Assembly (NCBI GenBank): GCA_018267385.1
Contig: JAFDYN010000007.1
Location: 248,001 to 312,000 of the forward strand
Origin: Bacteroidota bacterium
GTDB lineage: Bacteria; Bacteroidota; Bacteroidia; Chitinophagales; LD1
Direction: 5' to 3'
DNA: 64,000 nucleotides
The position numbers were made by a program, and so were the translations under genes. Below, one piece after another: positions 21,079 to 47,910 of the stretch. Position 1 is the stretch's first letter, and the number at the start of each line of letters is the position of its first letter. Under the pieces are notes generated by a model. The model made no database searches. It was not told the origin of the DNA and was given only the letters and a program-made list of their open reading frames with translations.

Positions 21079-22929
21079 ATGAAACTCAAGTTTTTAAAGC
21101 CATATCTCTCAGTCAAAGACTTTGCCGATATAGAGGTTGAATCTTTTTCACTTTACACTGGCCTTAATGGCGCAGGGAAAACACATTTGTTACAAGCAAT
21201 TAAGGCAGGTAACATTCAAGTGAGCGATTTCGGAGCAAATGAAATTGTATATTTTAATTATAATGATTTCATTGTAAATACCGAGGCTAAAAGCCATTCA
21301 AGTATTCAGCCGCAACATTTAAGGACTAATATAGATGCATCCAGGCTCGCACGGCTAGCTGAATATCGAAATCATGTTATGAGATTAGGTGACGAACTTG
21401 GGAATGATCCTATAGATCGAACTATAATATATTTTCTAATTCATGCTAGTATCAATGAGTCTTCGTTCGAGGAGATTTTTGGTTCTCCGAAAGACTACGA
21501 GCTATTGGAGAAAGAAAAAATAAGAAATGAAGGCCGTGTAAATACAAATATGCTCAACGGCTCGGTAAGCCAAGCATTCACGAATTTTATAAGTAACTAT
21601 CATAGCAGGGGAGGATACGCGTATGACTGGGATTATGAAAGTATAAAGGGAAAAGTTAAATATTGGGAGGAGGATTTAACCCAAAAAGTTTTGGACTCAG
21701 GCAATGAATACTTCGATTTTTTAAAGCGCACACTTCCTAAAAGTAAGAGTATCATAGGCCTCTCTTATAATGATTTCGAGCATATAAATTTATTTGAATC
21801 AGATCTATCTCATGAAATTAAACTCTATATTATTAGAGAATCTCAAAATGCCTTGCAAAGGTTCAAGTCCGAAAGACAAACCGGAGTTCATTTTTTAAGT
21901 AATGAGGAGTTCTTGTTGAAGTGGGGAAAATCGCCTCTAATTCTGATGAATGAAGTTTTGGAGGAATACGATTGCAATGGTTACTATCTACATACTGAAT
22001 GGAGTCCTGAATATAGCGATGCTCACATGCAAAAAACAATACCAATTGAAATTAGGCATAGGAGGGAACCGTATATAACTAATTTCTCTCATTTGTCATC
22101 GGGAGAACAGACTTTACTTGCGATAGCCTTGATGGTATACAAGGCAAGAAAGGGATGTGTTTTTCCTAGAATGCTGTTGTTAGATGAGATTGATGCTGCA
22201 TTGCATCCATCGATGATAAAGCGGTTGCTTGGTGTGTTGCAAAAGGTATTTTACGAAGATAAGGGACTTAAAATTATGATGGTAACGCACTCTCCTACAA
22301 CTGTTGCTTTATTCCCTTCAGAAATAGTTTATGTGGTAGACAAGAATTCAGAGCCTTTTATTCAAAAAAAACAAAAGGCCGAAGCAATTGAATTTTTATC
22401 AGAGGGTTTTGCAACTCTGGAAGAAGGAGTAAAACTATTAGATCAAATAGGCAAGTGTAACATTTCAATAATAACCGAAGGGAATAATACAGAATACTTG
22501 AAACGGGCCAATTCTATATTTGGAAGCGATGATATCGAAATAGTTGAAGGTTTGGAGAGCAAGACGGGTAAAGATCAGTTAAGGTCATTATATACCTTTT
22601 TTTCAAAGGTGCCACATGATAAAAAAGTTGTGATAGCATGGGATTATGATGCTAACAACTTTTCCTCTCTTACATCAACTAACAAAACTTACCCATTTAT
22701 CTTTACGAAGAACGAATTGAATAATAAAATCAAACGTGGAATTGAAAACCTGTTTCCAGAAAGTTTATTTGATGCTCGATTCTACAAACTCGACCCAGAT
22801 GATGAATACGGAGGAAGGCATACCACCTTTGATAAAAAAGCATTCAAGAAGTATATAATTGACAATGGTACTCAGCAGGACTTCATCAATTTTAAACCTT
22901 TTTTTGATTTTATTAAATCAATAAAATAA
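21079..22929 (+). CDS. AT-rich ABC-type ATPase with C-terminal TOPRIM domain (OLD-like)
   Basis: Residues 1-410 form an ABC/SMC-like ATPase: Walker A GLNGAGKT at 28-35, signature LSSGEQ at 339-344, Walker B MLLLDEID at 365-372 and switch His in MVTHS at 401-405. A TOPRIM nuclease-like domain follows: Glu467 in IITEGNN and the DxD pair Asp522/Asp524 in AWDYDAN. This ATPase-TOPRIM order is that of OLD-family nucleases, several of which act in phage defence, alone or with a helicase partner (GajA/GajB). No helicase is adjacent here. Base composition is visibly more AT-rich than both neighbours, which suggests horizontal gain. The role is inference. Confidence 0.8.
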   Translation: MKLKFLKPYLSVKDFADIEVESFSLYTGLNGAGKTHLLQAIKAGNIQVSDFGANEIVYFNYNDFIVNTEAKSHSSIQPQHLRTNIDASRLARLAEYRNHVMRLGDELGNDPIDRTIIYFLIHASINESSFEEIFGSPKDYELLEKEKIRNEGRVNTNMLNGSVSQAFTNFISNYHSRGGYAYDWDYESIKGKVKYWEEDLTQKVLDSGNEYFDFLKRTLPKSKSIIGLSYNDFEHINLFESDLSHEIKLYIIRESQNALQRFKSERQTGVHFLSNEEFLLKWGKSPLILMNEVLEEYDCNGYYLHTEWSPEYSDAHMQKTIPIEIRHRREPYITNFSHLSSGEQTLLAIALMVYKARKGCVFPRMLLLDEIDAALHPSMIKRLLGVLQKVFYEDKGLKIMMVTHSPTTVALFPSEIVYVVDKNSEPFIQKKQKAEAIEFLSEGFATLEEGVKLLDQIGKCNISIITEGNNTEYLKRANSIFGSDDIEIVEGLESKTGKDQLRSLYTFFSKVPHDKKVVIAWDYDANNFSSLTSTNKTYPFIFTKNELNNKIKRGIENLFPESLFDARFYKLDPDDEYGGRHTTFDKKAFKKYIIDNGTQQDFINFKPFFDFIKSIK

Positions 22930-27064: not shown

Positions 27065-27127
27065 AGGACGGACGTTTTTTTAAAAGAAGGGCCCGTAGGA
27101 GGAGTATTTCTTTATAAATAGTGTGCT

Positions 27128-28597
27128 GTGACATCCATAGAACAATATATTAAGGATCAAGGAGGTATACTGTCTGGGGATTTAGAAAAATATCTTGTGC
27201 AGAGGGACGGTATTGCATCCCCAACTGCACGGAAGAGAATCGAAAGATTAAAAAGTCCTGTACATAAAATATCGGGATTGTTTTCCGAGAGCCAATCATT
27301 TATTTATCATTCAGACAATTACAGGAAAGAGGCCTTTTACGAAAATTTTAAAAACGCCCTTTCGGTAGCTGGCAAAAGACATTTTGCTATTCTTATAGCT
27401 CTTAATTTTCATCAGGGACTAATTAAAAAAGAGGATTTAGGAAATTATACTTTTAGCCCTGTTACTAAACTTAAAGGCCATCAATCGCTTTCCACCATCG
27501 TAGGTAATTTGCTGAAAAACAATATTATAAGCGATTATGATCAGGACCATTATCAATTAAATCCTTATTTGATAGATGGATTAGGAGCTGATATCAAGGC
27601 GTATAAAGCTATTGAGTTTTCAAAGGACCTTGTTTTAAACCAGTTCAATGTTTGGAGTAGGAATATTGGCATAGGATCGTTTAACAAGGGGAAGTTTAAT
27701 TCTGAGGTAGGAGGGTTTCAATTCGCGTATAGCGCCCCATCATATATAACAGGATTCGTACAATATAAAGGAGGAAATCCTAAACCTGGCTTTCTTGTAG
27801 CTGATGTTTTAATAGGGAATAAAGTTGATTTGCTCCAAGTTGATTTTTTCGTTCAAAAAATTAATGCAATCAAAGCTTCAAATATTTCTCTGAGACTATT
27901 TCCTGTTTTAATTGTTCACGGTGTAGAATTGGAAGCGCTTAATCTTTTAAAAAAGACAGGCATTGTTGTTGGTACGATTAAGGAGATTTTTGGTGAAAAT
28001 TATGATGAACTACTTAGATCTCTTATCAATACTATTAAAAACGCTGGCGAGATACTTAGAACCAAGCCCGAGGAATATATACAATTGATGATTGGTCTGA
28101 CGAAGTTGGTTGATGGCCAGACTAATAATTTGAGAGGTGATTTATTTGAATTAGCGGTTGGTTATTATCATGGTCAATTTTGTAAATTCTTAGAAATAGG
28201 GAAAAAGATAAAAGTTGAAAGTGATTTTAAAGAGTACGACGCTGATGTTTTTGCTATTTATGAAAATGAATTACATATAGCAGAATGTAAAGGCTACAAT
28301 TATCCTATAGATGACAGGTATATTATAAAATACTTGAATGAAAAATTACCTACTTTTAGAAATTGGGTTTTAGCAAGTAGTTATAAGGAAAAAGCCTTAA
28401 TTTTTGAAATATGGCGTACTGGAGGATTCACAGCTGAGGCACAGCAATTATTAGAGAAAGTGAATACCTCTAAGTATAGAGTTGAATTTTATGATAAGGA
28501 AAGGATTCTGAAAAAGGCGAAGGAATTAAAGTCTCCAAAATTTACGACAATATTAAGAGACTATTATTTTAAAAAAGATCAAAGTACACCATTTTAA
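27128..28597 (+). CDS. AT-rich uncharacterised protein with N-terminal winged helix and C-terminal PD-(D/E)XK-like nuclease motif
   Basis: GTG start at 27128. The first 150 residues look like one or two winged-helix units (SPTARKRIERLKSP; LSTIVGNLLKNNIISDYDQDHYQLNP). Residues 200-300 hold a Rossmann-like or decayed nuclease segment (SLRLFPVLIVHGVELEALNL ... KEIFG). The C-terminal part fits a PD-(D/E)XK core: Glu341 in GDLFELAVG, Asp371/Asp373 in EYDADVF and Glu386-x-Lys388 in AECKG. This resembles a widespread, uncharacterised family rather than a known restriction enzyme. The gene is much more AT-rich than carB before it and the lipoprotein after it. A single-gene defence role is plausible but unproven. 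Confidence 0.7.
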   Translation: MTSIEQYIKDQGGILSGDLEKYLVQRDGIASPTARKRIERLKSPVHKISGLFSESQSFIYHSDNYRKEAFYENFKNALSVAGKRHFAILIALNFHQGLIKKEDLGNYTFSPVTKLKGHQSLSTIVGNLLKNNIISDYDQDHYQLNPYLIDGLGADIKAYKAIEFSKDLVLNQFNVWSRNIGIGSFNKGKFNSEVGGFQFAYSAPSYITGFVQYKGGNPKPGFLVADVLIGNKVDLLQVDFFVQKINAIKASNISLRLFPVLIVHGVELEALNLLKKTGIVVGTIKEIFGENYDELLRSLINTIKNAGEILRTKPEEYIQLMIGLTKLVDGQTNNLRGDLFELAVGYYHGQFCKFLEIGKKIKVESDFKEYDADVFAIYENELHIAECKGYNYPIDDRYIIKYLNEKLPTFRNWVLASSYKEKALIFEIWRTGGFTAEAQQLLEKVNTSKYRVEFYDKERILKKAKELKSPKFTTILRDYYFKKDQSTPF

Positions 28598-28813
28598 ATT
28601 GATCAATTGTAGGATTCATAAGCGCTGTACTTAATCGCGAAATTGAGTTTAATCTGCTCGTCTTCCTATACCCAGATACTACCCACGCAGGCGATCTACC
28701 ACCTAAGCCCCAGATACAGGTATATGGTTTACCCTGGCCATTATCATTTTGCTGTCTTTGGCATGAACCCCTCATAACCAGATATTTATCGTTCTTTTTA
28801 GAAGTATCTTTCG

Positions 28814-29996: not shown

Positions 29997-30072
29997 GGTT
30001 CGCCCCTTTCCTGCATGACAAAAGTCATAAGTCCACGGCAAAGTAGTCATGGCATGGCTGCTATGACCCTGT

Positions 30073-45183: not shown

Positions 45184-47910
45184 TCACCTAAAACCATATT
45201 TTTCCTCGCGCTTTTTAAATGCTTCCTTACCCCCTTCTACAATATCTGCAATATGTTCTCTTATACCCATAGATTTTAGCAAATTCTTTTCCCCTTCAAC
45301 GAAGGGATATGTGTTTTCTAAAGATCCATTGATATAGTCGAATCGATATGGGCTTGTTGTTTCGATATCCTCTTGACCTTTTTGGTTCGCGACAATAATA
45401 TTCTCAGCATCTGCGTTAACAACGACATTAGCGTTATGTGTAACCAATATGATCTGTCTATCTAGCTTCTTGTTCCTCAAATACTCAACTAAATCCTTTG
45501 TAATAGATCTGTTATCAAGATTATCCTCAGGCTGGTCAATAAGGATTGGTGCTTTTGATTTACTTAATCCCACGATTAGCATAAGTATTATAAAGCTAGC
45601 TTTACCTGCTGACATCTTCCTCAGGGTATCCCCTTTATATTCGATTTGCCAATAATCGAAAAAGAAGTCATTCAAAAGTAGACTAATAGTGCTTTTTACA
45701 GTTGCCTTACTTGTTATAACGTAATCCCCACTTTCAATAGCAGAAAATATGGATTTTATATCTTGAATAATCTCAGTCAATACGTAGTCACTCAAAGAAT
45801 CCTTATGATTGTCAAATATCCTATACTTTCCATATGATGCGCTTCTCCCATCACTTATATCAAGAATAGCTCTTCTGAATTTTGAAAAATTAAATTTTAC
45901 GATTCCATCAATTTTTAAACCATCTTTTTCAAGGTCAACGACTCGAGATTTCAAATCAAAAATAACCTGCAAATAAAGATTATAGTTTTCCTCATATAAG
46001 GCAAATAATTTTTCCTTTTCCCTCTCCAAAGCAATGCTATTACCTTCAAGTTCTTTAGTAAGTTGATCAATAGCCTGTTGAGTTGTCCTATCTTCACTTA
46101 TCGATGTGAGAATACTATCTATTTGCCTTTTAGTCTCCTCGCCTCTCAAATATGGCTTTATCTCTTCTGAGATGTTCATTCCTTCCTTATTTAGATTTGA
46201 AAAGATTTCCGATAACTCATTTGAGCTTTGTTCTTCTCCACATTCATCAACTGAAACCATAAATGCGGTCAATTCTTCAATAAAGCTATCCAGTGTGAGA
46301 TAAGCCTTATTAAAAATCTCTTTTATTGAATCATTCTCAAGGGACGCCTGTAAGAGACCTTTTCTAGTCTTAAGATTACTTAAATTCTCGAAGGCATCTT
46401 TGTTGAAATTGACTATCCTCAGACAATCATTTTCTGCTTTAGTTAGTTCTAATTTATTTCTATCTAGCCGCGATTGCAATTCGTTGTATTTAATGATTTG
46501 CTCCGCATCAAGCCCCGCCTCTTGATTCAATTCTGCAACTTTTTGAATATTAGATTCAATATTGCTCTTGAGTATATCTTTATGAGTCTTGGTCTTCAGT
46601 TGCTCATTAAGAAAGGCAATCCGATCTTTAATATCAAAATAGGCATCTATTATCGCCTCTCGCTTTCGATCATTAGCCTTTACTTGAGATACGAAGAAAT
46701 CATAAGTCCTACGAGAATCATTGTCTTCATTTATTAATTCTCTGATGATTTTATTTAAAGCATTGCCGGTCTTGTTTTTGTCTGGCTCGGCAAGCTTTAT
46801 TAGGTAGTTCTGAGGAATATATTTGATTTCAGGAATGATGCTATTCTCTGTAGATTCTCTATATAATCTTTGAGGAAATCCTCCTTTTGTAATTATCTCG
46901 AAGTTAAATTCAACATCATCAGATCTAAAGTCATATTTATTCTCAATTTTCTCTTTATTAAGTATGGACTTGTCGGCCAAAAGAGTTTTCGCTATATTAT
47001 AAAGCAAAATAGATTTTCCTGACGACTTCCCACCTATAATTACGTTTAAATTCTCACTAAGAAATATCGAATTACCGGGAAATGTGTTATTGGAAGAATG
47101 AAATTTGATTTCTTCAATAATTACCCGATCTTCTTTATAATCTGGCTTATCCTTTTGAATCCTAACTCTCGCCTCTGGCTCATATAATATCTGTTTTAAC
47201 CCCTCGAAGTTAGGCTCTGCTTTAATCCACAAATTTTGCTTTACCTCATATTCAGATATATTATGATTATCCGAACAAATAATCATAGGAATTAACTTAC
47301 CTATTGTTCTTTTTAGAAATGGAATTACGTGCGTTTTATAACCTGCTTGATCTGATTCCTTCCCAATTTCAAAAACATCGATATTTCTAGCTATATCCTG
47401 CTTTTGAGCAATATTATGTTCTAAGGAATTGGTAATGTTTTCAATACTATTTGATTTTTTACCTGCATGTATTGTTACTATTCCATTTAGCTCTTTGACT
47501 ATTTTAATTGTATCAATTAAGTCACAGTAAACTTGATTAGGATCCAGTCCTTCGCTATCTATCTTATGGATATTAGTTTTGTGCTTGATTTGCCCCCATA
47601 TATGCTCTAAATCGGCCTTTTCACTAAAAATTGCGATAAAATGAATTGGCTCTTGCCCTCGCGCATCTGCAAGAAACTCGATACCAGGTAAAACTGTAAG
47701 ACCTTTGGATGTACCAAGTTCTTGAAGTTCCCTAATTCTATCAACATCGATGATATGGTGATCAGTGATGGCTACTACGGAAACATTATTTGCCACTAGC
47801 CCATCTACAATCTGTTGATTTGTGAGATTCTTATTCCCATAGTCGTAAGATGATTGACTGTGAAAATGCAAGTCCCACCTGCGCCATTCAGAACCTTTAT
47901 TTTTATTCAT
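45184..47910 (-). CDS. AT-rich PHP-domain plus SMC-like ATPase protein (TrlF-like)
   Basis: The N-terminal 240 residues are a PHP phosphoesterase: DLHFHS (13-18), ITDHH (48-52), PGIEF (75-79), TIHAGKK (146-152) and CSDNHN (212-217) supply all metal ligands. An SMC/AAA-type ATPase follows: Walker A GGKSSGKS (293-300), a long coiled-coil stretch about 410-660, signature MSAGKAS (766-772), Walker B PILIDQPEDNLD (788-799) and VTHNAN (823-828). This is the TrlF-type architecture. PHP domains cut phosphodiester or phosphate bonds, so an ATP-gated nuclease is likely. AT-rich relative to neighbours and flanked by REP-like hairpins. The role in the cell is not established. Confidence 0.82.
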   Translation of the reverse strand: MNKNKGSEWRRWDLHFHSQSSYDYGNKNLTNQQIVDGLVANNVSVVAITDHHIIDVDRIRELQELGTSKGLTVLPGIEFLADARGQEPIHFIAIFSEKADLEHIWGQIKHKTNIHKIDSEGLDPNQVYCDLIDTIKIVKELNGIVTIHAGKKSNSIENITNSLEHNIAQKQDIARNIDVFEIGKESDQAGYKTHVIPFLKRTIGKLIPMIICSDNHNISEYEVKQNLWIKAEPNFEGLKQILYEPEARVRIQKDKPDYKEDRVIIEEIKFHSSNNTFPGNSIFLSENLNVIIGGKSSGKSILLYNIAKTLLADKSILNKEKIENKYDFRSDDVEFNFEIITKGGFPQRLYRESTENSIIPEIKYIPQNYLIKLAEPDKNKTGNALNKIIRELINEDNDSRRTYDFFVSQVKANDRKREAIIDAYFDIKDRIAFLNEQLKTKTHKDILKSNIESNIQKVAELNQEAGLDAEQIIKYNELQSRLDRNKLELTKAENDCLRIVNFNKDAFENLSNLKTRKGLLQASLENDSIKEIFNKAYLTLDSFIEELTAFMVSVDECGEEQSSNELSEIFSNLNKEGMNISEEIKPYLRGEETKRQIDSILTSISEDRTTQQAIDQLTKELEGNSIALEREKEKLFALYEENYNLYLQVIFDLKSRVVDLEKDGLKIDGIVKFNFSKFRRAILDISDGRSASYGKYRIFDNHKDSLSDYVLTEIIQDIKSIFSAIESGDYVITSKATVKSTISLLLNDFFFDYWQIEYKGDTLRKMSAGKASFIILMLIVGLSKSKAPILIDQPEDNLDNRSITKDLVEYLRNKKLDRQIILVTHNANVVVNADAENIIVANQKGQEDIETTSPYRFDYINGSLENTYPFVEGEKNLLKSMGIREHIADIVEGGKEAFKKREEKYGFR

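Follow-up and report, generated by a model that had tools for sequence, protein, structure and literature searches.

What is the strikingly AT-rich gene that lies directly downstream of carB in this Bacteroidota genome, and what might its product do? A sequence-only reading of the window (the whole stretch of DNA analysed, 64,000 nucleotides) had proposed that it encodes a single-gene nucleic-acid-cutting protein for defence or regulation, with winged-helix features in its N-terminal half and a PD-(D/E)XK-like residue set in its C-terminal half. We examined the site, the predicted structure of the protein, its homologues and their gene neighbourhoods.

A foreign gene at a variable site after carB

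The frame was exactly as that reading had it, an open frame of 489 codons on the forward strand at 27128-28597 running from a GTG start at 27128 to a stop codon at 28595-28597, and its product has 489 amino acids. The 56 window ORFs longer than 400 bp had a mean GC content of 0.510 (sd 0.048), whereas the gene itself had 0.332; only two other ORFs were as AT-rich. The AT-richness that had been described (33% GC against the 51% mean of the window genes) was thus borne out, and the gene is a foreign, AT-rich one. The gene and its surroundings are as follows.

27065..28690, no strand assigned: variable segment; past the carB stop codon homology to congeners is lost, and in congener G395 it resumes at 28691
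27128..28597, forward strand: whole gene, 489 aa, member of an unnamed family (frame, GC content, full-length homologues)

The gene begins 63 bases past the carB stop codon. A search with the family profile found no family gene in six congeners and 54 other relatives; two relatives gave short partial matches only, and in the window genus the gene was present in one species only. Four congeners were read further, and in each of them homology ended at the carB stop codon or right beside it: G395 carried two RlaP-family ORFs after carB and was 97% identical beyond them, G399 carried a 215-codon ORF, G400 carried other AT-rich ORFs, and in G398 carB was joined nearly directly to window position 30015. 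No integrase or repeat was seen at the post-carB site. The point after the carB stop codon (window 27065; L070, L071, L072 and L073 in the relatives) is a cargo exchange site in the genus. The placement of the gene directly after carB was right as a location, but a functional link to carB was rejected because the congeners carry other cargo at this swap site.

Two other genes of the window deserve mention. An AT-rich gene (35% GC) at 21079-22929 on the forward strand encodes a 616-aa ATPase that matches the retron type I-B ATPase-Toprim, AriA and the Retron Ec83 ATPase; it is missing at the matching place in the congeners, which have an FAD/Rieske oxidoreductase gene there instead, and it is probably another single defence gene. 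A third AT-rich outlier (34% GC) at 45184-47910 on the reverse strand encodes 908 amino acids with an N-terminal PHP domain and a C-terminal SMC/AAA_21 region (weak matches), and its product resembles the Ppl single-gene defence type (PMC12904381).

For the protein encoded at 27128-28597, no match reached gathering level in Pfam, NCBIfam or PADLOC, and PHROGs gave no significant one. Likewise, the PADLOC 2.0.0 system models gave no full-length match to it, only partial, weak ones (best 1.2e-4). Among family members, weak matches to PADLOC CARF_PDDEXK were obtained, and Pfam NERD matched weakly in 2 of the 15 members scanned (best E 2e-5), which agrees with the "NERD domain-containing" label on some plasmid copies. 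Searches of the open-licence literature for named families, a third gene of Gabija systems and phage defence by tiny plasmids turned up no account of this protein. The sequence-only reading could name no restriction enzyme type for it, and no Pfam, NCBIfam or PADLOC family spans it; the family is unnamed and is probably an undescribed anti-invader enzyme.

Predicted domains and catalytic residues

The AlphaFold2 (AF2) model of the protein, built with a 26-sequence alignment, had a pLDDT of 85.8 and a pTM of 0.73. In this model, two winged-helix-like modules are predicted at the N-terminus, and PD-(D/E)XK folds make up both the central and the C-terminal domain, as listed below.

27128..27310, forward strand: predicted winged-helix-like module 1, residues 1-61 (AF2 helices 4-11, 16-27 and 31-39; strands 45-48 and 58-61)
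27329..27577, forward strand: predicted winged-helix-like module 2, residues 68-150 (AF2 helices 68-81, 83-94, 101-107 and 121-130; strands 134-136 and 146-149)
27587..27991, forward strand: central PD-(D/E)XK-fold domain, residues 154-288 (folded alone; fold matches; residue counts)
27992..28117, forward strand: helical linker, residues 289-330, of lower confidence (AF2 model)
28118..28540, forward strand: C-terminal PD-(D/E)XK nuclease domain, residues 331-471 (fold and profile matches)
28148..28150, forward strand: E341, helix-A acidic residue (27/27 sequences)
28244..28246, forward strand: D373, metal-binding Asp (27/27 sequences)
28283..28291, forward strand: E386-C387-K388, ExK motif (27/27 sequences)

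The residues that had been picked out by eye (E341, D371, D373, E386 and K388) were all at the positions assigned to them. However, the pattern E-x25-45-D-x8-20-[DE]xK was present in 86% of shuffles of the same protein, and the catalytic motif in a single sequence was therefore rejected as evidence. The PD-(D/E)XK claim was upheld instead by invariance among homologues and by the predicted fold. In an alignment of the window protein with 26 chromosomal homologues (22-29% identity), E341, D373, E386, C387 and K388 were invariant in 27/27 sequences, as were A34, R35, R40, W176, D226 and K244, and the C-terminal catalytic residues were also invariant in a 15-member alignment of plasmid homologues. 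Because position 371 is Glu in 25 of the 27 sequences, D373 is taken as the catalytic, metal-binding Asp; the alternative D371 was dropped.

The best structural match of the C-terminal domain was AF1548 (Z 13.6, rmsd 2.1 over 120 residues), followed by VC1899, Cdn1, FokI, Card1 and Can2 with Z 8-10, and its profile matched Card1 with an E-value of 0.002 with one alignment and 0.012 with another. The invariant E341, D373, E386 and K388 and these fold matches place the domain in the PD-(D/E)XK superfamily. Foldseek with the whole model gave weak E-values (one only at or below 1e-3) with MspJI as the top match, and a fold search among viral proteins returned generic restriction-nuclease folds only. 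A predicted structure lacking a nuclease fold had been named beforehand as evidence against the sequence-only reading, and the AF1548-like C-terminal part shows that this did not occur.

The central domain (residues 154-288), when folded alone, reached a pLDDT of 92.7 and matched AF1548 (Z 11.2), NucS (Z 11.1 and 10.7) and Card1 (Z 9.0), with PD-(D/E)XK folds or relatives filling nearly all of its match list. Since it matches these nucleases by itself, the protein has two PD-(D/E)XK-fold domains, not the single one implied earlier. The fold is present, although the catalytic set is incomplete in the window protein: D226 is retained and K244 is a possible migrated lysine, while no (D/E)xK occurs and D200, kept in 26 of the 27 aligned sequences, is replaced by Ala. 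The central domain is thus probably inactive or structural in the window protein, and its relatives may have a migrated-lysine site. An origin of the two nuclease domains by recent internal duplication was unsupported by profile comparison (probability 11.7%). On the family tree the window protein forms a very long branch (4.16), with at most 30% identity to any relative, and because of this branch and the lost D200 its own activity may differ.

For the N-terminal half, the winged-helix proposal is matched by the helix and strand pattern of the AF2 model, on which the assignment is based; the structure searches were run with the whole model and listed no match over these modules, a result that says nothing on their fold. 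The invariant A34, R35 and R40 lie within and just past the third helix (31-39) of predicted module 1. A regulator that binds DNA and keeps its nuclease fold only as a relic would suit this winged-helix-like N-terminus and the central domain of the window copy, which lacks a usual acidic residue. The C-terminal catalytic set, in contrast, is complete and invariant in 27/27, unlike a relic, and no conserved target operon lies nearby, making such a regulator very improbable.

Spread of the family and its gene neighbourhoods

In tblastn searches against plasmids, 354 records matched the window protein, 319 of them covering at least 80% of the query and all below 60% identity. Scans of genome and viral contigs with the single protein found no relatives because it is too diverged, and an alignment of plasmid homologues was needed. 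Searching with this alignment recovered 31 loci in bacterial genomes, mostly of Pseudomonadota but including two Acidobacteriota, one Micavibrio MAG and others. Carriage by phages is unsupported, since both the alignment scan of viral contigs and tblastn on 50,697 phage records were empty. The family is widely spread by horizontal transfer as plasmid and island cargo.

The smallest carriers were ColE1-type plasmids of 3.2-4.7 kb in Klebsiella, E. coli and Salmonella, in which the family gene was the main or only cargo. Among 5,426 complete E. coli genomes, one type was found in 20 and a second in 71, nearly always plasmid-borne. A chromosome-sized E. coli record (NZ_CP093011.1, 5181494-5183011) also carried a copy of the small-plasmid type, which suggests an integrated or co-assembled small plasmid. 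On large enterobacterial plasmids the gene sat in a fixed cassette of a HEPN nuclease (PF18736), an unknown ORF, the family gene and a DUF4238 protein, and in a Pantoea replicon it lay among integrating-conjugative-element genes. The cassette in L014 (6482-10716), L015 and L016 consisted of a HEPN pEK499_p136 nuclease, an unknown 250-aa ORF, the family gene, a DUF4238 protein and a small ORF, and may be a multi-gene system that includes the family member. DUF2971-type proteins recurred near family members (L012 9578-10345, L016 2655-3431, L049 5716-6660). Broken copies of the family gene, with internal stops or insertion sequences, were found in L032 (9998-11683), L018 and L052, which is what one would expect if the gene is mobile and at times a burden.

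Most family records are plasmids, many of them conjugative or mobilizable, and this, together with the ColE1-type plasmids that carry the gene as main cargo, would suit a nuclease for plasmid competition or upkeep whose targets are not phages but rival plasmids or the single strands of conjugation. We regard this as quite unlikely, given that chromosomal island copies lie beside anti-phage systems and that the gene is not constantly linked to genes for replication, partition or transfer.

Chromosomal and megaplasmid copies adjoined defence genes. PD-T7-1 was directly upstream of the family gene in L037, and PDC-S15 (L047), type I restriction (L033), a Dsr1-like gene (L043), PifA (L013) and PDC-S06 (L006) were near it elsewhere. 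Some loci had ordinary neighbours, namely glycine dehydrogenase (L038 and L045) and glutamine amidotransferase/SIS (L048). The homologues were plasmid, ICE or defence-island cargo, and the conserved housekeeping synteny that would have spoken against a defence role did not appear. No cognate methylase or modification gene was found among the translations of the immediate window neighbours or among the annotated genes of the 3.3-4.7 kb plasmids. The earlier remark that neither methylase nor helicase lies beside the gene holds for the window and the small plasmids, but elsewhere the helicase-bearing Gabija pair often adjoins it.

Gabija adjoined the family gene at 12 of 40 loci, in about six independent associations; these loci were collected by two peptide patterns and are a non-random sample, and Gabija was possibly missed where a locus ended soon after the gene. 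GajA and GajB were identified by PADLOC for three tested neighbour pairs, with E-values down to 1e-225 (GajA) and 1e-274 (GajB), and clustering by blastp served to assign the remaining pairs; L005 had a shorter helicase partner. Five of 22 whole genomes had a strong match (E <1e-40) to the GajA profile PDLC00073, and in all five this was the sole such GajA of the genome and lay, by coordinate, within 6 kb of the family gene. The Roseobacter-type GajA (L029, L030 and L034) belongs to a different profile, and at least three different GajA profile types occurred among the Gabija-adjoining loci. On the family tree, the label "beside Gabija" required seven changes, at least six of them forced by well-supported branches, indicating that the association arose or was lost repeatedly.

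Two geometries were observed. In several lineages Gabija lay upstream on the same strand, GajB ending 167-206 bp before the family gene; in the other class it lay downstream on the opposite strand with gaps of 8 to 1424 bp (convergent at 8-11 bp in one clade). This looks like a repeated partnership or a shared address rather than one operon. Because Gabija occurs in two orientations, it may share a defence-island address with the family gene and yet not be functionally coupled to it, and defence genes cluster anyway.

The counts, profile types and tree changes given above, the close spacing and the five genomes whose only strong GajA is next to the family gene would all suit a Gabija-linked accessory whose main role is alongside GajAB, perhaps as a further nuclease that processes ends, its solitary copies using other host end-processing systems. 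We consider this unlikely: Gabija was not seen at 28 of the 40 loci, among them tiny plasmids that carry hardly any other gene, the orientation is not fixed, and a full GajA of the tested profile is missing from the window genome. The window protein showed no GajA or GajB homology in PADLOC and was rejected as a Gabija component on that ground, the link being one of neighbourhood only.

Proposed action and likeness to known systems

The nuclease fold and the mobile and defence-island context support the reading of a mobile, self-contained single-gene DNA-cutting defence nuclease, to which we give a probability of about two in three; both cutting and defence are inferred from fold and context. 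The winged helices of such an enzyme would bind a fixed feature of invading DNA. A34, R35 and R40 are invariant at only about 25% protein identity, which argues for a common cue and not for sequence specificities that vary from member to member. Candidates for this cue are DNA ends, the DNA backbone or a base modification. We prefer DNA ends, because the ends of phage DNA are the described site of action both of Gabija, the best-linked neighbour, and of Shedu, the functional analogue (PMC12904381). The alternative is a base modification, in view of the MspJI-type enzymes at the top of the Foldseek list, though they share no reader with the family. The central domain may then serve as an inactive clamp or pseudo-dimer partner, and the C-terminal domain, as its invariant active site suggests, would cut or nick the DNA. 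A methylase would be unneeded because the cue is not a sequence that the host must mask.

The repeated neighbourhood, and the work of Gabija at phage DNA ends, suggest that the family nuclease and Gabija may act in complementary ways on the same kind of target. That the family is an undescribed partner of Gabija, processing the phage DNA ends on which Gabija acts and functioning by itself where it is the single cargo gene of tiny ColE1-type plasmids, is put forward only tentatively. Gabija itself resembles the family as a recurrent next-door neighbour and not as a homologue, GajA being an OLD-type ATPase with TOPRIM and GajB a UvrD-like helicase.

In its general plan, a DNA reader joined to a PD-(D/E)XK cutter, the protein is like Shedu, Mrr or FokI; membership in none of them is established. 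Shedu resembles it in being a one-gene defence system whose protein joins a variable N-terminal part that engages DNA to a PD-(D/E)XK nuclease at the C-terminus, and SduA is described as an end-sensing nuclease (PMC12904381). The window model matched SduA (8ps5) with Z 7.3 over 135 residues, a value within the range of a merely shared fold. The window protein differs from Shedu in its tandem nuclease-fold domains and two predicted winged helices, and Pfam DUF4263 (Shedu) matched none of the 15 members scanned at E up to 1. Mrr-type enzymes, the type IV enzymes MspJI and AspBHI, and AF1548 likewise join a winged helix or other reader to a C-terminal PD-(D/E)XK domain. However, the window protein has no SRA reader and has an extra central nuclease-fold domain, and Mrr_cat gave a marginal match in one member only (E 0.0094). 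FokI and N.BspD6I carry winged-helix DNA-reading modules ahead of the PD-(D/E)XK domain and matched the nuclease part with Z of about 9, but the family differs in lacking a methylase partner and in having invariant reading-helix residues.

By profile (E 0.002-0.016), Card1 and Can2 are nearer to the C-terminal domain than any other solved proteins, and by structure (Z 7-9) they rank among the nearest, yet the similarity is confined to the nuclease. The PF09002-type PD-(D/E)XK domain of Card1 and Can2 scored 12.2 bits in the window protein against the curated cut-off of 26.4. No CARF domain was found in the window protein, whose N-terminal modules are predicted to be winged-helix-like and whose central domain is PD-(D/E)XK-like, and no CRISPR genes were identified beside the inspected family loci.

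On plasmids of E. coli, Klebsiella and Salmonella the family bears no annotation beyond "hypothetical" or "NERD domain-containing", and these results assign it an identity that can be tested. If the family is a defence enzyme, it would account for the cargo of some of the smallest natural plasmids, would add to the single-gene systems one whose nuclease has an unusual tandem architecture, and would open to direct experiment the question of whether Gabija has a recurrent nuclease companion.
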